64,000 nucleotides of DNA from Paracyclopina nana (taxonomy: Eukaryota; Arthropoda; Copepoda; Cyclopoida; Cyclopettidae): positions 4,290,501-4,354,500 of the forward strand of contig JAGUCH010000002.1 in assembly GCA_019096065.1 (NCBI GenBank), written 5' to 3'. The notes beneath the pieces are model-generated. The model ran no database searches. It was not told the origin of the DNA and saw only the letters and a list, made by a program, of their open reading frames with translations. Below, in pieces: positions 16,184 to 52,546 of this stretch. Position numbers and translations under genes: made by a program. Numbering within the stretch: the first letter of the stretch is position 1; each line of letters starts with the position of its first letter.

Positions 16184-21858
<5,675 letters not shown>

Positions 21859-36208: not shown

Positions 36209-39200
36209 TTATTTTTTTTCTCTTTTTATGCTAGCATAATATGCTCTGTCAGATCCAGTATTGCAAGTTAATTCTCCGTTGTCTCTCAAATACCACCACT
36301 CGTACGCATCTTTGATAGTTTTTCTTGGCATTGCAGGATTGCCGTTGAGCGTATCACACAGCTGGCAAAACGTTTGCCTGTTAATTGATAAAAAAATTAA
36401 CGGCTAATTTTTATCATAATATTTTTCATACCATGTGTAAGCATTGTGACTTTCTTTCCACTTGAAGTATGCGCTGTAAAGCTCCTGAAAAAAAATTAAT
36501 TGGATGCTTTTTTTAAAATCTCCTTTGACTAACCTTATTCTTGCTTAGCTTTATAAGATATTGCGCCAATGCCTTGATGCTTGGGAAGTCATTCACGTCT
36601 ATGTACGAGTTGGGTGGTGCTATTGCCTTGTAATCTGCTCCGCCCATCACCACAGGAACCACAGGATACATCAGGGCTCTGAAGAACTTTTCAGTGGCGT
36701 ATTCATCACATATGCTGTTTTCGAACGCGATGTAAAACATGTAATTCAGCGAATAGTTTTGGAAGCATTCATTGCCTTTCCTGGCACATTCACCCATTCC
36801 GCATCTTCCAAAAACGTCCACCTTTATGTATTGTTGCAGTTGCTTCACATATCCTTCACGATTGATGCCAGTTTCACAATGGGACACCAGCCAAAATGCC
36901 ATTTCTCTTTGAGGTAGCCTATTAATTTTTAATAGTTGATCACTTTTCGTAAATATGCTGGATTTTAGGGCAGTGGCCAGATATCCAGCGCACAGAATCC
37001 CCGAAATAGGCACGCCCGCATCCATTGAGCATCACAAACGAATCAAGCACAGAACACAGAATTCCCGAAATAAGCACGCCCGCATCCAATTAGCATCATG
37101 ACTGCACAGAACACAGAATCCCCAAAATGGACCTGTAGCAACAAAAAACTTGGTCTTTCCTTTCACGTCCTCACTGTGCTCACCCAGACCAGCTGGAAGC
37201 GAGCCGGGCCAGCGTCCTCACCCTACGCCACCCAAACATTCACGCGCGCGCGCGCGTGGGCCCTCAAGCTACAGAAAAACTTTGTGTTTCTTCCCGCTTC
37301 CTCACTGTGCTCACCCAGAGCCGCTGGAATCGACCCGGGCCGGCGTCCTCACCCTACGCCACCCAAAGCTTCCCAGGCGCGCGCGCGCGAGGGCCCACAA
37401 GCTACAGAAAAACTTTGTGTTTCTTCCCGTGTCCTCACTGTGCTCACCCAGACCCGCTGGAAGCGACCCGGGCCGGCGTCCTCACCCTACGCCACCCAAA
37501 GCTTCCCGGCGCGCGCGCGCGAGGGGCCTGTAGCAACAAAAAACTTGGTCTTTCCATTTGCGTCCTCACTGTGCTCACCCAGACCCGCTGGAAGCGAGCC
37601 GGGCCGGCGTGCGCACCCAACGCCGACCAAAGCTTCCCGGCGCGCGCGCGCGAGGGACCTGTTGCAACAAAAAACTTGGTCTTTCCTTTCGCGTCCTCAC
37701 TGTGCTCACCCAGACCAGCTGGAAGCGACCCGGGCCGGCGTCCTCACCCTACGCCACCCAAAGCTTCCCGGCGCGCGCGCGCGAGGGACCTGTAGCAACA
37801 AAAAACTTGGTCTTTCCATTCGCGTCCTCACTGTGCTCACCCAGACCCGCTGGAAGCGAGCCGGGCCGGCGTGCGCACCCAACGCCGACCAAAGCTTCCC
37901 GGCGCGCGCGCGCGAGGGACCTGTTGCAACAAAAAACTTGGTCTTTCCTTTCGCGTCCTCACTGTGCTCACCCAGACCAGCTGGAAGCGACCCGGGCCGG
38001 CGTCCTCACCCTACGCCACCCAAAGCTTCCCGGCGCGCGCGCGCGAGGGTCCTGTAGCAACAAAAAACTTGGTCTTTCCTTTCGCGTCCTCACTGTGCTC
38101 ACCCAGACCAGCTGGAAGCGAGCCGGGCCGGCGTGCGCACCCAACGCCGACCAAAGCTTCCCGGCGCGCGCGCGCGAGGGACCTGTTGCAACAAAAAACT
38201 TGGTCTTTCCTTTCGCGTCCTCACTGTGCTCACCCAGACCAGCTGGAAGCGACCCGGGCCGGCGTCCTCACCCTACGCCACCCAAAGCTTTCCGGGCGCG
38301 CGCGCACGAGGGTCCTGTAGCAACAAAAAACTTGGTCTTTCCTTTCGCGTCCTCACTGTGCTCACCCAGACCAGCTGGAAGCGACCCGGGCCGGCGTGCG
38401 CACCCAACGCCGACCAAAGCTTCCCGGCGCGCGCGCGCGAGGGACCTGTTGCAACAAAAAACTTGGTCTTTCCTTTCGCGTCCTCACTGTGCTCACCCAG
38501 ACCAGCTGGAAGCGACCCGGGCCGGCGTCCTCACCCTACGCCACCCAAAGCTTCCCGGCGCGCGCGTGCGAGGGTCCTGTAGCAACAAAAAAATTGGTCT
38601 TTCCTTTCGCGTCCTCACTGTGCTCACCCAGACCAGCTGGAAGCGACCCGGGCCGGCGTGCGCACCCAACGCCGACCAAAGCTTCCCGGCGCGCGCGCGC
38701 GAGGGACCCGTAGCAACAAAAAACTTGGTCTTTCCTTTCGCGTCCTCACTGTGCTCACCCAGACCCGCTGGAAGCGACCCGGGCCGGCGTGCGCACCCAA
38801 CGCCGACCAAAGCTTCCCGGCGCGCGCGCGCGAGGGACCCGTAGCAACAAAAAACTTGGTCTTTCCTTTCGCGTCCTCACTGTGCTCACCCAGACCCGCT
38901 GGAAGCGACCCGGGCCGGCGTGCCCACCCAACGCCGACCAAAGCTTCCCGGCGCGCGCGCGCGAGGGACCCGTAGCAACAAAAAACTTGGTCTTTCCTTT
39001 CGCGTCCTCACTGTGCTCACCCAGACCCTCTGGAAGCGAGCCGGGCCGGCGTGCGCACCCAACGCCGACCAAAGCTTCCCGGCGCGCGCTCGCGAGGGAC
39101 CTGTTGCAACAAAAAACTTTCCTTTCGCGTCCTCACTGTGCTCACCCAGACCAGCTGGAAGCGACCCGGGCCGGCGTCCTCACCCTACGCCACCCAAAGC

Positions 39201-42200
39201 TTCCCGGCGCGCGCGCGCGAGGGGCCTGTAGCAACAAAAAACTTGGTCTTTCCATTTGCGTCCTCACTGTGCTCACCCAGACCCGCTGGAAGCGAGCCGG
39301 GCCGGCGTGCGCACCCAACGCCGACCAAAGCTTCCCGGCGCGCGCGCGCGAGGGACCTGTTGCAACAAAAAACTTGGTCTTTCCTTTCGCGTCCTCACTG
39401 TGCTCACCCAGACCAGCTGGAAGCGAGCCGGGCCGGCGTGCGCACCCAACGCCGACCAAAGCTTCCCGGCGCGCGCGTGCGAGGGTCCTGTAGCAACAAA
39501 AAAATTGGTCTTTCCTTTCGCGTCCTCACTGTGCTCACCCAGACCCGCTGGAAGCGAGCCGGGCCGGCGTGCGCACCCAACGCCGACCAAAGCTTCCCGG
39601 CGCGCGCGCGCGAGGGACCTGTTGCAACAAAAAACTTGGTCTTTCCTTTCGCGTCCTCACTGTGCTCACCCAGACCAGCTGGAAGCGACCCGGGCCGGCG
39701 TCCTCACCCTACGCCACCCAAAGCTTCCCGGCGTGCGCGTGTGAGGGTCCTGTAGCAACAAAAAACTTGGTCTTTCCATTTGCGTCCTCACTGTGCTCAC
39801 CCAGACCAGCTGGAAGCGAGCCGGGCCGGCGTGCGCACCCAACGCCGACCAAAGCTTCCCGGCGCGCGCGCACGAGGGACCTGTTGCAACAAAAAACTTG
39901 GTCTTTCCTTTCGCGTCCTCACTGTGCTCACCCAGACCAGCTGGAAGCGAACCGGGCCGGCGTCCTCACCCTACGCCACCCAAAGCTTCCCGGCGCGCGC
40001 GTGCGAGGGTCCTGTAGCAACAAAAAAATTGGTCTTTCCTTTCGCGTCCTCACTGTGCTCACCCAGACCAGCTGGAAGCGAGCCGAGCCGGCGTGCGCAC
40101 CCAACGCCGACCAAAGCTTCCCGGCGCGCGCGCGCGAGGGACCTGTTGCAACAAAAAACTTGGTCTTTCCTTTCGCGTCCTCACTGTGCTCACCCAGACC
40201 AGCTGGAAGCGACCCGGGCCGGCGTCCTCACCCTACGCCACCCAAAGCTTCCCGGCGCGCGCGTGCGAGGGTCCTGTAGCAACAAAAAAATTGGTCTTTC
40301 CTTTCGCGTCCTCACTGTGCTCACCCAGACCAGCTGGAAGCGACCCGGGCCGGCGTGCGCACCCAACGCCGACCAAAGCTTCCCGGCGCGCGCGCGCGAG
40401 GGACCCGTAGCAACAAAAAACTTGGTCTTTCCTTTCGCGTCCTCACTGTGCTCACCCAGACCCGCTGGAAGCGACCCGGGCCGGCGTGCGCACCCAACGC
40501 CGACCAAAGTCCTGGCGCGCGCGCGCGAGGGACCCGTAGCAACAAAAAACTTGGTCTTTCCTTTCGCGTCCTCACTGTGCTCACCCAGACCCGCTGGAAG
40601 CGAGCCGGGCCGGCGTGCGCACCCAACGCCGACCAAAGCTTCCCGGCGCGCGCGCGCGAGGGACCCGTAGCAACAAAAAACTTGGTCTTTCCTTTCGCGT
40701 CCTCACTGTGCTCACCCAGACCCGCTGGAAGCAACCCGGGCCGGCGTGCGCACCCAACGCCGACCAAAGCTTCCCGGCGCGCGCGCGCGAGGGACCCGTA
40801 GCAACAAAAAACTTGGTCTTTCCTTTCGCGTCCTCACTGTGCTCACCCAGACCCGCTGGAAGCGAGCCGGGCCGGCGTCCTCACCCTACGCCACCCAAAG
40901 CTTCCCGGCGCGCGCGCGCGAGGGGCCTGTAGCAACAAAAAACTTGGTCTTTCCATTTGCGTCCTCACTGTGCTCACCCAGACCCTCTGGAAGCGAGCCG
41001 GGCCGGCGTGCGCACCCAACGCCGACCAAAGCTTCCCGGCGCGCGCGCGCGCGAGGGACCTGTTGCAACAAAAAACTTGGTCTTTCCTTTCGCGTCCTCA
41101 CTGTGCTCACCCAGACCAGCTGGAAGCGACCCGGGCCGGCGTCCTCACCCTATGCCACCCAAAGCTTCCCGGCGCGCGCGCGCGAGGGACCTGTAGCAAC
41201 AAAAAACTTGGTCTTTCCATTCGCGTCCTCACTGTGCTCACCCAGACCCGCTGGAAGCGAGCCGGGCCGGCGTGCGCACCCAACGCCGACCAAAGCTTCC
41301 CGGCGCGCGCGCGCAAGGGACCTGTTGCAACAAAAAACTTGGTCTTTCCTTTCGCGTCCTCACTGTGCTCACCCAGACCAGCTGGAAGCGACCCGGGCCG
41401 GCGTCCTCACCCTACGCCACCCAAAGCTTCCCGGCGCGCGCGCGCGAGGGTCCTGTAGCAACAAAAAACTTGGTCTTTCCTTTCGCGTCCTCACTGTGCT
41501 CACCCAGACCAGCTGGAAGCGAGCCGGGCCGGCGTGCGCACCCAACGCCGACCAAAGCTTCCCGGCGCGCGCGCGAAGGACCTGTTGCAACAAAAAACTT
41601 GGTCTTTCCTTTCGCGTCCTCACTGTGCTCACCCAGACCAGCTGGAAGCGACCCGGGCCGGCGTCCTCACCCTACGCCACCCAAAGCTTCCCGGCGCGCG
41701 CGCGCGAGGGTCCTGTAGCAACAAAAAACTTGGTCTTTCCTTTCGCGTCCTCACTGTGCTCACCCAGACCCTCTGGAAGCGAGCCGGGCCGGCGTGCGCA
41801 CCCAACGCCGACCAAAGCTTCCCGGCGCGCGCGCGCGAGGGACCTGTTGCAACAAAAAACTTGGTCTTTCCTTTCGCGTCCTCACTGTGCTCACCCAGAC
41901 CAGCTGGAAGCGACCCGGGCCGGCGTCCTCACCCTACGCCACCCAAAGCTTCCCGGCGCGCGCGTGCGAGGGTCCTGTAGCAACAAAAAAATTGGTCTTT
42001 CCTTTCGCGTCCTCACTGTGCTCACCCAGACCAGCTGGAAGCGACCCGGGCCGGCGTGCGCACCCAACGCCGACCAAAGCTTCCCGGCGCGCGCGCGCGA
42101 GGGACCCGTAGCAACAAAAAACTTGGTCTTTCCTTTCGCGTCCTCACTGTGCTCACCCAGACCCGCTGGAAGCGACCCGGGCCGGCGTGCGCACCCAACG

Positions 42201-45200
42201 CCGACCAAAGCTTCCCGGCGCGCGCGCGCGAGGGACCCGTAGCAACAAAAAACTTGGTCTTTCCTTTCGTGTCCTCACTGTGCTCACCCAGACCAGCTGG
42301 AAGCGACCCGGGCCGGCGTGCGCACCCAACGCCGACCAAAGCTTCCCGGCGCGCGCGCGCGCGAGGGACCTGTTGCAACAAAAAACTTGGTCTTTCCTTT
42401 CGCGTCCTCACTGTGCTCACCCAGACCAGCTGGAAGCGACCCGGGCCGGCGTCCTCACCCTATGCCACCCAAAGCTTCCCGGCGCGCGCGCGCGAGGGAC
42501 CTGTAGCAACAAAAAACTTGGTCTTTCCATTCGCGTCCTCACTGTGCTCACCCAGACCCGCTGGAAGCGACCCGGGCCGGCGTGCGCACCCAACGCCGAC
42601 CAAAGCTTCCCGGCGCGCGCGCGCGAGGGACCCGTAGCAACAAAAAACTTGGTCTTTCCTTTCGCGTCCTCACTGTGCTCACCCAGACCCGCTGGAAGCG
42701 ACCCGGGCCGGCGTGCGCACCCAACGCCGACCAAAGCTTCCCGGCGCGCGCGCGCGAGGGACCCGTAGCAACAAAAAACTTGGTCTTTCCTTTCGCGTCC
42801 TCACTGTGCTCACCCAGACCCGCTGGAAGCGACCCGGGCCGGCGTGCGCACCCAACGCCGACCAAAGCTTCCCGGCGCGCGCGAGGGACCTGTAGCAACA
42901 AAAAACTTGGGCTCATTATCTTCCTCATCTTTGATTGTAGCATGGTTGCGGTTGTTATCGGTTCTTATTTACTGACGAGGTTGCGATGTCAGTAAATAAG
43001 AAGCGATAACAACCGCAACCAAGTCACGATCAAAGACGCGGAAGATAATGAGCCTTGGTCTTTCCTTTCGCGTCCTCACTCTGCTCACCCAAAACTTTTG
43101 ATAGGACTAGTCTCCTAGTGCTAAATGCTAACTGAAACAAGCATATTTTTTGGCAACTTTTTTGAGCTATGAGCAAAACTCGCGTAACGTGAATAATTGC
43201 CTGAGCGAAATTGCACTTTTTGACAAAGGCCAAAGTTTGGTCTTTTTTCACCTAGTTTTGATAGAACTAGTATCCTAGTGCAAAAACTAGCAGAAACTGG
43301 CATATTTTTTGGCTACTTTTTTGAGCTAGGATTGAAACTCGCGTAACGTGAATAATTGCCTGAGCGAAATTGCACTTTTTGACAAAGGCCAAAGTGTGGT
43401 CTTTTTTCACCTAGTTTTGGTAGGACTAGTCTCCTAGTGCAAAAACTAGCAAAAACTAGCATACTTTTTGGCAACTTTTTTGAGCTATGAGCGAAACTCG
43501 CGTAACGTGAATAATTGCTTGAGGAAAATTGCACTTTTTGACAAAGGCCAAAGTGTGGTCCTTTTTCACCTACTTTTGGTAGGACTAGTCTCCTAGTGCA
43601 AAAACTAGCAAAAACTAGCATATTTTTTGGCAACTTTTTTGAGCTATGAGCAAAACTCGCATAACGTGAATAATTGCCTGAGCGAAATTGCACTTTTTGA
43701 CAAAGGCCAAAGTTTGGTCTTTTCACCTAGTTTTGATAGGACTAGTCTCCTAGTGCTAAATGCTAACTGAAACAAGCATATTTTTTGGCAACTTTTTTGA
43801 GCTATGAGCAAAACTCGCGTAACGTGAATAATTGCCTGAGCGAAATTGCACTTTTTGACAAAGGCCAAAGTTTGGACTTTTTTTACCTAGTTTTGATAGG
43901 ACTAGTCTCCTAGTGCAAAATGCTAACTGAAACTAGCATATTTTTTGGCAACTTTTTTGAGCTAGGAGCGAAACTCGCGTAACGTGAATAATTGCCTGAG
44001 CGAAATTGCACTTTTTGACAAAGGCCAAAGTTTGGACTTTTTTACCTAGTTTTGATAGGACTAGAATCCTAGTGCAAAATGCGAGCTGAAACTAGCATAT
44101 TTTTTGGCAACTTTTTTCAGCTAGGAGTGAAACTCGCGTAACGTGAATAATTGCTGGAGGAAAATTGTGACTTTTGACGAAGGCCAAACCTTGGCCTTTA
44201 TCCACCTAGTTTTGATAGGACTTGTCTCCTAGTGCTAAATGCTAACTGAAACAAGCATATTTTTTCTTATTTTTTGGCAACTTTTTTGAGCTAGGAGTGA
44301 AATTTGCGTTTGACCTTTTTTCAGCTAGTTTTGACAGAACTAGTCTCCGGTTATGTGACCATTAAAATTGCATATTATATAATGGCCAGAAGGAAAGTTT
44401 TTTAGTTGCTACAGGGCCCTCGAGACCGCTAGCGCGCGCCCGGGAAGCTTTGGTCGGCGTTGGGTGCGCACGCCGGCCCGGGTCGCTTCCAGCGGGTCTG
44501 GGTGAGCACAGTGAGGACACGGGAAAAAACACAAAGTTTTTCTGAAGCTTGAGGGCCCTCGCGCGCGCGCGCGCGTGAAGCTTTGGGTGGCGTAGGGTGA
44601 GGACGCCGGCCCGGGTCGATTCCAGCGGGTCTGGGTGAGCACAGTGAGGACACGGGAAGAAACACAAAGTTTTTCTGAAGCTTGAGGGCCCTCGCGCGCG
44701 CGCGCGCGTGAAGCTTTGGGTGGCGTAGGGTGAGGACGCCGGCCCGGGTCGCTTCCAGCGGGTCTGGGTGAGCACAGTGAGGACACGGGAAGAAACACAA
44801 AGTTTTTCTGAAGCTTGAGGGCCCTCGCGCGCGCGCGTGTGAAGCTTTGGGTGGCGTAGGGTGAGGACGCCGGCCCGGGTCGCTTCCAGCAGGTCTGGGT
44901 GAGCACAGTGAGGACACGGGAAGAAACACAAAGTTTTTCTGAAGCTTGAGGGCCCTCGCGCGCGCGCGCGTGAAGCTTTGGGTGGCGTAGGGTGAGGACG
45001 CCGGCCCGGGTCGCTTCCAGCGGGTCTGGGTGAGCACAGTGAGGACACGGGAAGAAACACAAAGTTTTTCTGAAGCTTGAGGGCCCTCGCGCGCGCGCGC
45101 GCGTGAAGCTTTGGGTGGCGTAGGGTGAGGACGCCGGCCCGGGTCGCTTCCAGCGGGTCTGGGTGAGCACAGTGAGGACACGGGAAGAAACACAAAGTTT

Positions 45201-46869
45201 TTCTGTAGCTTGTGGGCCCTCGCGCGCGCGCGCCTGGGAAGCTTTGGGTGGCGTAGGGTGAGGACGCCGGCCCGGGTCGATTCCAGCGGCTCTGGGTGAG
45301 CACAGTGAGGAAGCGGGAAGAAACACAAAGTTTTTCTGTAGCTTGAGGGCCCACGCGCGCGCGCGCGTGAATGTTTGGGTGGCGTAGGGTGAGGACGCCG
45401 GCCCGGGTCGCTTCCAGCGGGTCTGGGTGAGCACAGTGAGGACGCGAAAGGAAGGACCAAGTTTTTTGTTGCTACAGGTCACTCGCGCGCGCGCGCCGGG
45501 AAGCTTTGGGTGGCGTAGGGTGAGGACGCCGGCCTGGGTCGCTTCCAGCGGCTCTGGGTGAGCACAGTGAGGACACAAGAAGAAAGACAAAGTTTTTCTG
45601 TAGCTTGTGGGCCCTCGCGCGCGCGCGCCTGGGAAGCTTTGGGTGGCGTAGGGTGAGGACGCCGGCCCGGGTCGCTTCCAGCGGCTCTGGGTGAGCACAG
45701 TGAGGACGCGGGAAGAAAGACAAGGTTTTACTCCAGCTTGAGGGCCCTCACGCGCGCGCGCGCGGGAAGGTTTGGGTGGCCTTTTTTCTTGGGATTGCTG
45801 TGTTTTCTTTATCTGATGCTCAATCGCGGGCGAGCCCATTTTGGGCATTCTGTGTGCTGTGATTTCTTGTTGCAATTGTGATGCTCTATGAATGCGGGCG
45901 TGCCTATTTCGGGGATTCTGTGCGCTGGTTATCTGGCCACTGCCGATTTTAGTTTACGCTGAAACATCAGTGACTGGAATGTGATGAGCTTTCCAATATT
46001 TCGTTGGCTGCAAATCCTTGGACAAGAACTTGTATCCATATGGGTCATAAATGTCACTTTTCTGCTTGTAGCTCCATGTCCAATTGAAAAAGTGGCTGTA
46101 ATTCAAGAGCAAAATTTTTTGCCAGCTCGATGAAATGTATCCACTTGCAATACTTACGGGGTGAAGTACTGCCTATTTACAAATGACATGGAGATGTCTG
46201 GTCGAGGAGATTCGTGCAGCTTCATTATGTAGATTTGGTTCGGATGTCTCTTCGTGAACATCTTCATTAGTTGCATAGCTTTCTAAAAGCAAAAAAATTC
46301 CATTGATGTCCATTTTTATTTTACATGGGCTTACGTCGTCTTCCTTGAAACTTTCCACATTTACCACAATTGCATCAAACAAATCTATGCCTTTACGTGC
46401 CAAGAAGTCTTCATTAGCGGTGATTAAACAATTGGAGTATTCGCATTCTGCATGACAATAAAGTTGAAAACATTTTATTCATGTTTCAGAATTGCATGAT
46501 TACCTGAGAACTTTGAAAAACCATCTTTTTCTTTGTAATTAATGAATAAGATGTACTTGATTTGTTGCTGTGCTGAAATCTTGCCAAATACAATTTTTTT
46601 TTTTTTTGCATTTATTGATTTTGTCTAGTTAAATTACCACTTACCTTATTTAAGCTAACTATTTCCTGTCGTGTTTCCTGACCCGGTCTGAATTTTGGCT
46701 TACGTGTAATTTGCTCTTCATCAGCCGCACGATACAAGAGGTAAGTGGTCACAACACAAAGTGATATTAATATTAGAAGCCTTGAAAGCATGATGAGCCA
46801 GCTTTCCAAAGTTCCGAACGGCGCTGCTAAATTATTGCCATTTGTTGCTCGATTTCTAGCATACGTCAT
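36209..46869 (-). CDS. Alpha-1,3-fucosyltransferase (GT10 family), 427 aa
   Basis: Exons (minus): 46869-46645, 46579-46504, 46447-46335, 46282-46158, 46095-45958, 36918-36534, 36484-36432 and 36377-36209. Layout: short cytosolic tail, one TM helix (LIMLSRLLILISLCVVTTYLL), stem, then the GT10 catalytic region with FNWTWSYKQKSDI and YIAFENSICDEYATEKFF, the GDP-fucose-binding motif. Such enzymes work in the Golgi and add fucose to N-glycan cores or antennae. Seven introns; six are short, but the fifth is 9039 nt and consists almost wholly of a foldback element. The phase across that intron (GC then G) restores an Ala codon and a continuous family-like sequence, so splicing of the giant intron is expected. 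Confidence 0.9.
36969..37037 (+). repeat. Left terminal inverted repeat
   Basis: 69 bp, reverse-complement match to 45876-45944 with mismatches at TIR positions 16, 54 and 58. It begins exactly next to the 8-bp duplication. Confidence 0.9.
36991..37130 (+). repeat. Subterminal direct repeats of the foldback element
   Basis: A unit starting CACAGAATCCCCGAAATAGG occurs at 36991-37035, again at 37055-37099 with a few changes, and as a truncated third copy at 37112-37130. Related inverted copies lie at about 45813-45925. Short subterminal repeats like these are typical transposase-binding sites. Confidence 0.75.
37132..42910 (+). repeat. Left arm: about 44 copies of a 131-bp CG-rich tandem repeat
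   Basis: The anchor CGTCCTCACTGTGCTCACCC recurs every 131 bp from 37166 to 42796. Each unit holds a (CG)n tract of 5-7 repeats, an AAGCTT site and a GCAACAAAAAACTTGG block. Two subtypes differ in the middle (CCTCACCCTACGCCACCC versus GCGCACCCAACGCCGACC) and often alternate, giving a 262-bp higher-order unit. The first two or three units carry the CTACAGAAAAACTTTGTG block that is typical of the right arm. Long open frames here are by-products of the period (131 leaves remainder 2 on division by 3). Confidence 0.95.
42911..43053. mobile_element. 143-bp hairpin MITE nested in the 131-bp array
   Basis: It starts GCTCATTATCTTCC and ends with the reverse complement. Two arms of about 66 bp match with roughly eight differences around a short loop. 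It is flanked by direct CTTGG copies (42906-42910 and 43054-43058), and the array unit resumes after it, so it is an insertion with a 5-bp target duplication. There is no coding capacity. Confidence 0.88.
43088..44350 (-). repeat. Central array: about eight copies of a 159-bp repeat
   Basis: The block CCTAGTTTTG recurs at 43251, 43410, 43726, 43886, 44045 and 44205 (one copy varied at 43569), a period of 157-160 bp. Units include a palindromic ACTAG region, a TTTTTTGGCAACTTTTTTGA run and CTCGCGTAACGTGAATAATT. It is AT-rich and unrelated to the 131-bp unit. Open frames in it have no protein support. Confidence 0.9.
44405..45779 (-). repeat. Right arm: about ten inverted copies of the 131-bp repeat
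   Basis: The reverse complement of the arm unit recurs at 131-133-bp spacing from 44502 to 45691. Most copies carry the AAACACAAAGTTTTTCTG block, unlike the bulk of the left arm. One copy near 45440-45480 is of the left-arm type, and the adjoining stretch is nearly identical (inverted) to 37150-37500. Confidence 0.93.
45876..45944 (-). repeat. Right terminal inverted repeat
   Basis: Inverted partner of 36969-37037, ending CTGGCCACTGCC directly beside the right target-site copy. That copy lies 5 bases inside the splice donor of the host intron. Confidence 0.9.
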
Positions 46870-48366: not shown

Positions 48367-48993
48367 ATGGCTGAAATCAGTTACAGCAGAGAGGATGCTC
48401 TGAAAGCAAACGAAGAAAAGCTGAAGATCGAGGCCGAAATATCGCAATGGAAGCTGATTTTAGATTCGGAGAAGAATGTAGGAATGGACGGGAAGTTGGT
48501 CGATGATGAAGGCTACCCTCGCAACGACATTGACGTTCCCAAAGTGAGGCTGGCCAGACAGAAAATAATTTGCCTCAGCAATGATCACAAAGCTGTCATG
48601 CAGAAAATCAGCCAAATTCTGGTCGCCATCCACTCAAATAGCACCAACAATCACCAAGAGGAAGAAAGAATGGAGGACGGGAACAAATATGCCGATTTGC
48701 CCACCCCTTTTGCCAAAGTTGAGTTTGTCAACATTGGCAGCCCTGCACACGACTGCGGAATCAAACGTGGTGACCTCATTGTCGAGTTTGGCACGCAAAA
48801 CGTGGAGAACTTCAAGTCGCTCATGGATATCGGACAATTAGTGCAAAACTGCATGAACAGAAACGTGCGAGTGAAGCTGATCAGAGACAATGTACAAGTT
48901 ATCACGCTCAACCTAGTGCCAAAATTGTGGGCTGGAGTTGGCCTTTTGGGCTGCAAGTTGATCCCACTGAAAGAAATCGAAATGCCAGAATAA
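48367..48993 (+). CDS. PSMD9: 26S proteasome assembly chaperone PSMD9 (p27), 208 aa
   Basis: A single exon. The N-terminal coiled coil (LKANEEKLKIEAEISQWKLIL, then the DEEGYPRNDIDV-like segment characteristic of the family) is followed by a PDZ-like domain (AKVEFVNIGSPAHDCGIKRGDLIVEFG). PSMD9/Nas2 binds the ATPase Rpt5 and guides base assembly of the proteasome. Length is close to human (223 aa). The start is the first ATG that precedes the conserved helix. It converges on the EcKinase-like gene; an AATAAA near 49090 serves this gene. Confidence 0.92.
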   Translation: MAEISYSREDALKANEEKLKIEAEISQWKLILDSEKNVGMDGKLVDDEGYPRNDIDVPKVRLARQKIICLSNDHKAVMQKISQILVAIHSNSTNNHQEEERMEDGNKYADLPTPFAKVEFVNIGSPAHDCGIKRGDLIVEFGTQNVENFKSLMDIGQLVQNCMNRNVRVKLIRDNVQVITLNLVPKLWAGVGLLGCKLIPLKEIEMPE

Positions 48994-50497: not shown

Positions 50498-51133
50498 AAC
50501 TTCTCTGCCTTCAGCTGTACTTTCACCTCCAGATTAGAACATATCGTCATTCATCCATGAGCTCTACAGATCTGCTGCCTAGGTGCGCAGGGAGAAGTTC
50601 GGTGATTTCTCTCCCCATCTACCGATGAATAGAGTCGAAAAAGTTAAACCAATCATAGCTCATGAGAATCAGACGCTGTGATTACTTTGGTGGTATTTCC
50701 GATAAATATATAAAAAATGAGTTAAAATAATTTTTTATCTAGCTTTCCATTTTTTTCTTTTAACTACCGCGAGTCAACTAATTCCTGTGTCTGTCAAAAC
50801 TTTTTGGTTTCGGGCTTAATCTTGTAGTGCCAAATATTTATCTAAATTGTTGATGTTGCCGAAGTGAAGAAAAGCCGCTTGCCAAAAAGTTCACTTATTC
50901 ACGACTTGCATCCCTGGCGCTTTCAAAAAATCACATTGGCTAAGTAAGTCATTTTTCGCTTGATTCGTTTCGCGGGAAACAAGCTCTTTGTTTACATTTT
51001 TGTTTCACTATCTGTGTTCGACTCCTACGCACAGTCAACTGATGATTTTCTATCTCACTTGCGTTAAGAGTACATCTGTTCAGACTTCTCCAAGTGAGAA
51101 TCTTCTTGTGGTGCTAACCTTTTCTTCGTCACC
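50498..51133. promoter_or_regulatory. Divergent upstream region of EcKinase-like gene and presenilin
   Basis: A 636-bp interval between divergent ATGs. AT-rich stretches but no definite core element. Confidence 0.3.
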
Positions 51134-52546
51134 ATGAGCAGGTCAAGGAAACCGGAGGAATTCAGCTTGGCCAGAATGGATCGAGTAGACTCGAATTCGA
51201 GCCAAGCGAGTTCTGAGCACAACTTGGTTGATGGCGATCAAAGCAATCCGAGAAGACCTCCAAGGAAGACGAGGGGAGGTGCACGATCGAATCCAGATGA
51301 CTACCATGCCAATAACCTTGTAAGTTTTTTGCTTGTAAGCGATAATTTTTTTCCTGAGTCAACTGGTATTTCACAGGGCGCAGGACAAGAAAATAGCCAT
51401 AGAAATGCCAGAGGTCGTGCTCCAGAAGCCGTCAGAGGCCCCCCACTGGTCAATGCCGGTCCTGATCCTGCACTAGAAGAAGAACTGGATCTCAAGTATG
51501 GAGCTCATCATGTCATCATGCTGTTCACCCCAGTTACCCTTTGCATGGCGGTTGTGGTTGCAACCATCTCTAGTGTTACCTTTTACACGAAAAACGACGG
51601 CGTGTACTTGGTGTACACGCCGTTCCACGAGACCAGTGACAATGCGGGTACTATTGCTTGGAATGCTCTGGCCAATGCTGGAATCCTGCTGGGCGTCATC
51701 GCTGTCATGACCGTGCTATTGATTCTGGCTTACAAATTCAAGTGTTACTGGCTCATTCATGGCTGGCTTTTCGTCTCCTCCCTCATGCTCCTCTTTCTCT
51801 TCTCCTTCATCTACTTAACTGAAGTACTTAAAACCTACAACCTGCCCCTTGACTACATCAGCCTCTCGATTTTCATGTGGAACTTTGGAGTCGTTGGGAT
51901 GATTTGCATCCACTGGAAAGGACCCTTGAAGCTCCAGCAGGCTTACCTTGTTTTCATATCAGCCCTGATGGCGTTGATTTTCATCAAGTACATGCCCAAC
52001 TGGACCACTTGGGCAGTCCTGGCTGTCATCTCTCTATGGGATCTCTTCGCAGTCCTAGCACCATTTGGGCCCCTGCGGATCCTCGTTGAAACTGCTCAAG
52101 AGAGAAATGAGCAAATTTTCCCTTCCCTGATCTACTCTGCTGGAGTTGTCTACACTCTGGTTGGCATGGCTGATACCAATGCCCCGAGGACAAGACGAAA
52201 CTCAGATGGAGGATTTGAGGATAGCAATCCAAGACAGCAGCAAGTGCAGCAGCCGCAAGAGCTTGACGAAGAAGATCGTGGGATCAAGCTTGGACTCGGT
52301 GATTTCATCTTCTACTCCATCTTGGTTGGTAAGGCAAGCTCTTACGGCGATTGGAATACGACATTGGCTTGTTTCGTGGCCATTTTGATCGGGTTATGTT
52401 TGACCCTGATGTTCCTTGCTGTCTTCAGAAAGGCACTGCCTGCATTGCCTTTTTCGATAGCATTTGGATTAGTGTTTTACTTTTTGACAAGAGAAATCAT
52501 TACGCCATTCGCTGATGCCTTGTCAGCCAAGCAAATATTTATGTAG
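51134..52546 (+). CDS. Psn: Presenilin, catalytic subunit of gamma-secretase, 451 aa
   Basis: Exons 51134-51319 and 51377-52546. The 57-nt intron has GTAAGT and TTTCACAG ends but is a multiple of three and open, so read-through would add 19 residues. Nine TM helices are visible. The two catalytic Asp lie in [10 protein letters not shown] (TM6; WD in place of the vertebrate YD) and [10 protein letters not shown] (TM7), and a PALP motif (ALPALPF) lies in TM9. The long hydrophilic loop with [10 protein letters not shown] is present. Gamma-secretase cleaves Notch and other type I membrane proteins within the membrane. Confidence 0.95.

Follow-up and report, generated by a model that had tools for sequence, protein, structure and literature searches.

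A fucosyltransferase gene of the copepod Paracyclopina nana carries about 9 kb of tandem and inverted repeats in one of its introns. Is this structure a transposon, and if so, of what kind and moved by which enzyme? The locus lies in a stretch of 64,000 nucleotides (contig JAGUCH010000002.1, positions 4,290,501 to 4,354,500; hereafter the window) of a 92 Mb genome. An earlier note, made from the letters of the window alone, had proposed a foldback-type transposon with exact ends. Our analysis indicates that the window element is a transposed foldback element belonging to a multicopy family, to which we assign a probability of roughly 0.87. Among the copies read, the family is non-autonomous. 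Below, window coordinates are positions in the 64-kb stretch, other genome positions are given by contig (C1, C2 and so on), and individual loci carry L numbers.

The element proper occupies 36969-45944 (8,976 bp) and is built as follows:

36961..36968, plus strand: left copy of the target-site duplication (TSD; GATTTTAG), read from the sequence
36969..37037, plus strand: left terminal inverted repeat (TIR), 69 bp, the same as the right end at 66 of 69 positions
37038..37128, plus strand: left subterminal region, in which the inner part of the end recurs in diverged form (81% match, read directly)
37129..42910, plus strand: left arm, 131-bp unit x 44.2 (Tandem Repeats Finder, unit map)
42911..43095, no strand: spacer between left arm and centre array (interval between arrays)
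43096..44265, plus strand: centre array, 159-bp unit x 7.3, common to other subfamilies (Tandem Repeats Finder, unit map)
44266..44431, no strand: spacer between centre array and right arm (interval between arrays)
44432..45780, minus strand: right arm, 133-bp unit x 10.2, opposite in orientation to the left arm, its units forming a separate clade (Tandem Repeats Finder, unit map)
45781..45875, minus strand: right subterminal region, read from the sequence
45876..45944, minus strand: right TIR, 69 bp (comparison with the left end)
45945..45952, plus strand: right copy of the TSD (GATTTTAG), read from the sequence

Foldback elements such as FB of Drosophila and TU of sea urchin classically have a short unique end, mirror-image arms of tandem repeats and a variable loop, and the window element resembles both in layout, a likeness of description rather than of sequence. 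The exact ends that had been proposed hold at every point: the 8-bp copies of GATTTTAG are perfect, and the inverted ends differ at three positions only (16, 54 and 58 of the first 69). On the plus strand of the window, GATTTTAG occurs besides the two TSD copies just once more, at 48456. The subterminal repeats were recovered as well, bases 31-100 of the end being matched anew just inside the left end at 81% (C2:4327555-4327617). The earlier count of about 44 and 10 arm copies agrees with the Tandem Repeats Finder values, and in the unit map units are on the plus strand in the left arm and on the minus strand in the right arm. This picture is refined in that the two arms are different unit clades, with 83.3% identity between arms against 92.0% and 91.3% within them (up to 14 units were sampled per array for all arm identities). 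Melted strands would be expected to snap back, given the inverted arms; the outer 168 bases of the left end, folded alone, gave no structure beyond shuffles.

A search with the end, which starts GGCAGTGGCCAG, was then made through the whole genome. A lack of further copies, which the earlier note had named as fatal to its proposal, is not what we found: the first 30 bp, with up to three mismatches, gave 103 matches (52 on the plus and 51 on the minus strand) and none with the reversed control, which excludes chance for this end. We listed 100 of these matches, and 60 of the 100, window included, lie in the sequence read. Pairing by position yielded 34 adjacent inward pairs, although some of the wide pairs may consist of ends from neighbouring elements. 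The end exists in two variants, ...CAGAAT and ...CAGAAA; about 60 bp of it is constant, while copies range from under 1 kb to 53 kb. Clusters of ends lie at C2:149-379 kb, C4:9.02-9.64 Mb and C8:1.09-1.59 Mb, two of them near contig ends, and viral contigs contained no match to the family end. An autonomous partner set sharing the exact 15-base start was considered and rejected: the 15-mer occurs at 81 places, and all coincide with listed ends except C1:10204277, which lies inside locus L046. The family thus displays inverted tandem-repeat arms, a short conserved TIR with a TSD, and dispersed copies with varying arm and loop length, as foldback elements do.

Insertion should leave duplications of the target, as the earlier note had noticed at the window copy. 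In 29 end-pair tests (one left end, at a recombinant locus on C8, was used in two), exact 8-bp duplications were present in 24 and none was longer. The 24 duplications are 24 different sequences. They flank even a pair of ends 53 kb apart (C3:4075315-4128744, CCATTTCA) and a 30-kb copy (C8:2882964-2913100), as well as a 706-bp miniature copy at L046 (C1:10204026-10204731, GCCTTACG) that has an extra internal start of the end. The AT fraction at duplication positions 3-6 is 0.81, 0.90, 0.90 and 0.81, compared with 0.59 in the flanks. One insertion could be compared with an empty site. The copy at C1:11039710-11052974 (L029/L030) sits in a 169-bp array and is flanked by CATTTTGA; when its flanks were joined with one duplication and aligned to the 169-bp arrays of L033 and L040, we obtained 237 identities, 37 mismatches and a single gap, which is not at the insertion point. 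Such a gap-free join is what insertion with an 8-bp target duplication predicts.

Several results weigh against a transposed foldback family, and they are best considered together. By position, 32 of the 100 listed ends remain unpaired. Five of the 29 tests gave no exact duplication: L043 matches at 7 of 8 bases, the degenerate L044 and L045 have none, and two tests fall at the recombinant C8 locus. The autonomous copy for which the earlier note had asked was not found, as the copies read, which cover 60 of the 100 listed ends, contain no transposase that we could identify. Ten open reading frames (ORFs) from five cores (L009, L010, L019, L020 and L031) had no Pfam match above cut-off, with weak matches below it to DUF1722, DUF5871 and zf-HIT, and the L010 core translated in six frames had no Pfam match either. 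None of the five Mutator-like (MULE) and none of the 11 P-type RNase H matches of a genome-wide profile scan lies inside a paired element. Finally, 255 of the 510 hits of a 159-bp tag are outside the sequence read, some of the placed ones lying away from listed ends.

An alternative is that the copies are blocks of satellite DNA spread by recombination or segmental duplication rather than transposons. In keeping with this, 159-bp arrays stand away from listed ends (C1:3390242, C2:58385-64666, C2:2642964 and C3:937859), and the locus C8:1299212-1303967 is a recombinant without a duplication. Because half of the hits are outside the sequence read and some are placed away from listed ends, the 159-bp array is not confined to the family; those arrays are either free satellites or parts of another element family. 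The places of the first 100 hits per tag were listed, and further free arrays may exist. Nevertheless, 24 exact duplications of 24 different sequences and the gap-free empty-site alignment run counter to a spread of satellite blocks, which we regard as very improbable. We therefore retain the reading of a transposed foldback family.

The host gene supports the location of the insertion that had been given at the outset. A minus-strand ORF at 36513-37031 matches Glyco_transf_10 with an E-value of 6.6e-45, and two exons flank the element:

36513..36918, minus strand: fucosyltransferase exon downstream of the insertion (Glyco_transf_10; 36513 is the limit of the open frame)
45958..46172, minus strand: fucosyltransferase exon upstream of the insertion (given as its open frame, which runs on in frame into the downstream exon once a 55-nt intron is removed)

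When the element and one duplication were removed in silico, an intron of 55 nt with GT...AG borders was restored, across which the exons are in frame. The intron now measures 9,039 nt. The insertion point is 13 nt into it, so that one copy of the family appears to have landed in a 55-nt fucosyltransferase intron, beside the splice donor. Elsewhere in the window, a 721-amino-acid acidic open frame at 18911-21076 contains an in-frame 36-bp tandem repeat x 10.2 (19662-20029), and an apparently single-exon presenilin gene lies at 51098-52546, its open frame spanning most of the protein. This presenilin has its best E-value with Trichuris trichiura (54% identity over 67% of the query), but its identity is higher with the sea louse Lepeophtheirus salmonis (74% over 73%), with a TCALIF (Tigriopus) record (71% over 74%) and with further contigs (up to 80%), which points to a probable copepod.

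The arms behind the constant end are not the same in all copies. The unit map distinguishes four arm types:

131/133-bp arm type: window, L027, L029/30, L031/33, L041
27-bp arm type: L009-L018, L034, L036-L039
110/140-bp arm type: L021-L024, L026, L028, L042, L043, L047/48
9-bp arm type: L019/20

In all four, the units are mirror images, with the left arm on the plus and the right arm on the minus strand. The 27-bp unit seems to be made up of three 9-bp steps, and the seemingly unique cores of this subfamily turned out to be long-period repeats (those of L015 and L036 are 97-99% like the L010 core over long matches). The 131- and 110-bp units share a 16-column motif, GTCCTCA(C)TGTGCTCA, with a score of 25, where the best of 200 shuffles reached 24; comparison with the 27-bp units, the 9-bp units and the end itself found nothing beyond shuffles. 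This lends no support to a binding site shared by every arm.

By tag searches, the arm satellites occur for the most part in this family alone. For the 131-bp tag, 142 of 150 hits fall in the sequence read and 4 more inside the pair at C3:1636274-1666723. The 110-bp tag has 206 hits, 154 of them in the sequence read and 22 more, among those listed, inside the pair at C5:5861180-5870383; three others, at C7:2669300-2669607, have no listed end nearby.

Three of the arm types (131, 27 and 110 bp) include copies with centre arrays of 159 and 169 bp. The 159-bp array described by the earlier note is thus present, but it is not peculiar to the window copy, as its units are found in three subfamilies. 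They are about 77-93% alike between subfamilies and 96-98% alike within the 110-bp type; no 159-bp array was seen in L009, L010, L015/16 or L019/20.

The window copy can be compared with L027. Here the arms match crosswise, the left arm of the window copy to the right arm of L027 with 93.5% identity and its right arm to the left arm of L027 with 91.1%, and the orientation of the 159-bp array is reversed in step with the arms. This indicates one lineage inserted in opposite directions. Array lengths differ between the two (44 versus 10 units in one case, 10 versus 7 in the other), and in this lineage the arms would already have been distinct before, with array lengths changing. By contrast, the arms of L041 (91.0% between arms) and L031/33 (89.7%) are not distinct, with values like those found within arms. 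Both states, distinct and like arms, are therefore present in the family.

Some copies contain further structures. Frames of long terminal repeat (LTR)-type retroelements are nested in the centres of several (L031-L033, L034-L035, L036-L038 and L019). In L035 they match rve, H2C2 and DUF5641 in the integrase core, and the integrase core in L037 is just below the Pfam cut-off; two L031 frames (458 and 637 amino acids) and the gag-like frames of L019 had no Pfam match above it. These retroelements account for some of the large copy sizes and are not part of the foldback family. The recombinant locus L025/L040 (C8:1299212-1310590) begins with one 131-bp-type unit at the left, followed by a 110-bp-type arm and an inner right end, after which come a 169-bp array, units of the 131-bp type and then another right end, with no matching duplication. 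In the centre of a 110-bp-type copy, L022:3512-5325 holds a 660-bp inverted repeat with 97% identity, which looks like another insertion.

As no transposase was identified in the copies read, we take them to be moved in trans, and the question becomes which enzyme does so. From the duplication length, the earlier note had considered hAT, P and MULE-like enzymes. P elements make 8-bp duplications, within a range of 7-8 bp for the P superfamily; 8 bp is also usual for hAT elements, whose duplications have the consensus nTnnnnAn. Mobilisation by a hAT transposase would thus explain the length, yet just 1 of the 24 exact duplications fits the consensus. The hAT models PF05699 and PF14291 had no match in the genome; the control genomes were equally silent, so this does not show that hAT is absent. 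We consider a hAT enzyme unlikely, and of the three original candidates P and MULE are kept. Among other profiles, the KDZ (Zisupton-like) model had no genome match with the control silent too, and the Merlin model DDE_Tnp_IS1595 (IS1595-like) had none while one control genome was positive.

For a P-superfamily transposase, which would make this a Galileo-like foldback, speak the strictly 8-bp duplications in all 24 exact cases and the P-type RNase H matches, three of which are strong (E 1.1e-28 to 3.6e-24). Galileo itself is described as a foldback of the P superfamily whose ends carry tandem repeats (PMC3573991). On the other hand, each of the three strong matches contains one stop, and the P-type match nearest to a listed end is 34.7 kb away from it. 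We place a P-type enzyme first among the candidates, at somewhat less than even odds.

A Mutator-like transposase, the kind that mobilises Tm1 and has been proposed for Tetris, comes next and is a possible but more doubtful source. All five MULE matches are open frames of 252-537 amino acids with no stop, and foldbacks are said to be mostly Mutator in the report on Tetris (PMC4079207). One match, C1:17718506, is only 4.4 kb from a listed end, the unpaired C1:17714075; this end points away, however, and the MULE is outside the element. Duplications of the Mutator-linked foldbacks are also described as variable (8-10 bp, mostly 9, for Tm1; 8-10 bp for Tetris), against 8 bp in 24 of 24 cases here, a value inside the Mutator range though not the usual one, and the strict length would seem to speak for P rather than for Mutator. 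The likeliest source, although unproven, is an enzyme of P or Mutator type that acts in trans. The remaining share of our expectation, a minor one, goes to some enzyme of neither P, Mutator nor hAT type, and the mobilising enzyme may even belong to no described superfamily.

That the family itself is undescribed, as the earlier note suspected, is plausible. To our knowledge the TIR start is not a recognised one, and of the papers in an open-access library that contain the first 12 bases of the end, none is about a transposon to judge by title (Repbase and Dfam are outside this comparison). By title, the same library yielded nothing on foldback elements of copepods or crustaceans, and the accounts read gave no description of several arm satellites behind one constant end.

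Nearest in form is Tetris, a foldback transposon of Drosophila virilis, followed by Galileo and Tm1. Like our family, Tetris is reported to have long inverted ends with variable numbers of tandem repeats, a non-coding middle of variable size and a link with satellite DNA, with no autonomous copy found and duplications of 8-10 bp (PMC4079207). It has one repeat, TIR-220, in three structurally complete copies reported, whereas four arm satellites share the same end here. Kilobase arms, centre arrays common to subfamilies and strictly 8-bp duplications further set the present family apart from the description of Tetris (PMC4079207). Galileo of Drosophila likewise has inverted ends that are repetitive inside, repeats that expand and contract, and chimeric copies whose two ends are of different kinds and whose flanks do not match; it differs in its account by copies with transposase sequence and 7-bp duplications, compared with 8 bp and no transposase in the copies read here (PMC3573991). 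Tm1, a Mutator/Foldback element of root-knot nematodes, likewise has composite inverted ends with a repeated motif and mostly non-autonomous copies, but its redundant motifs are described as short (about 14 bp) and its 7-bp terminal motifs as asymmetric, its duplications are mostly of 9 bp, and one copy codes for a transposase (PMC3169594).

How could such a family arise and spread? We infer that a transposase encoded elsewhere would bind the constant ends and excise the element, which would reinsert through 8-bp staggered joins with a preference for an AT-rich four-base core. Only the ends seem to be required, so that arms and centre would be free to grow, shrink or be replaced via unequal exchange. 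Arms that change freely behind needed ends would give subfamilies with the same ends and different arm satellites. Taken further, the family might act as a shuttle for satellites, in which an end of about 60 bp suffices for the enzyme and the inverted arms are exchangeable cassettes, the 159- and 169-bp centre arrays having been retained. We offer this last proposal tentatively and rate it as doubtful.

Both the origin of foldback arms and the seeding of satellite DNA by transposons are open questions with few known cases. This single compact genome contains dozens of copies flanked by exact 8-bp duplications, with several arm types behind one end and arrays whose lengths vary from one related copy to the next, so that the order of arm replacement, unequal exchange and transposition can be read from its sequence. 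The fucosyltransferase intron, grown from 55 to 9,039 nt beside its splice donor, provides a simple host-gene test. If the family does act as a satellite shuttle, transposition would plant fresh mirror-image satellite arrays, including in introns and in the arrays of other copies, and the turnover of satellites and that of transposons would be one process.

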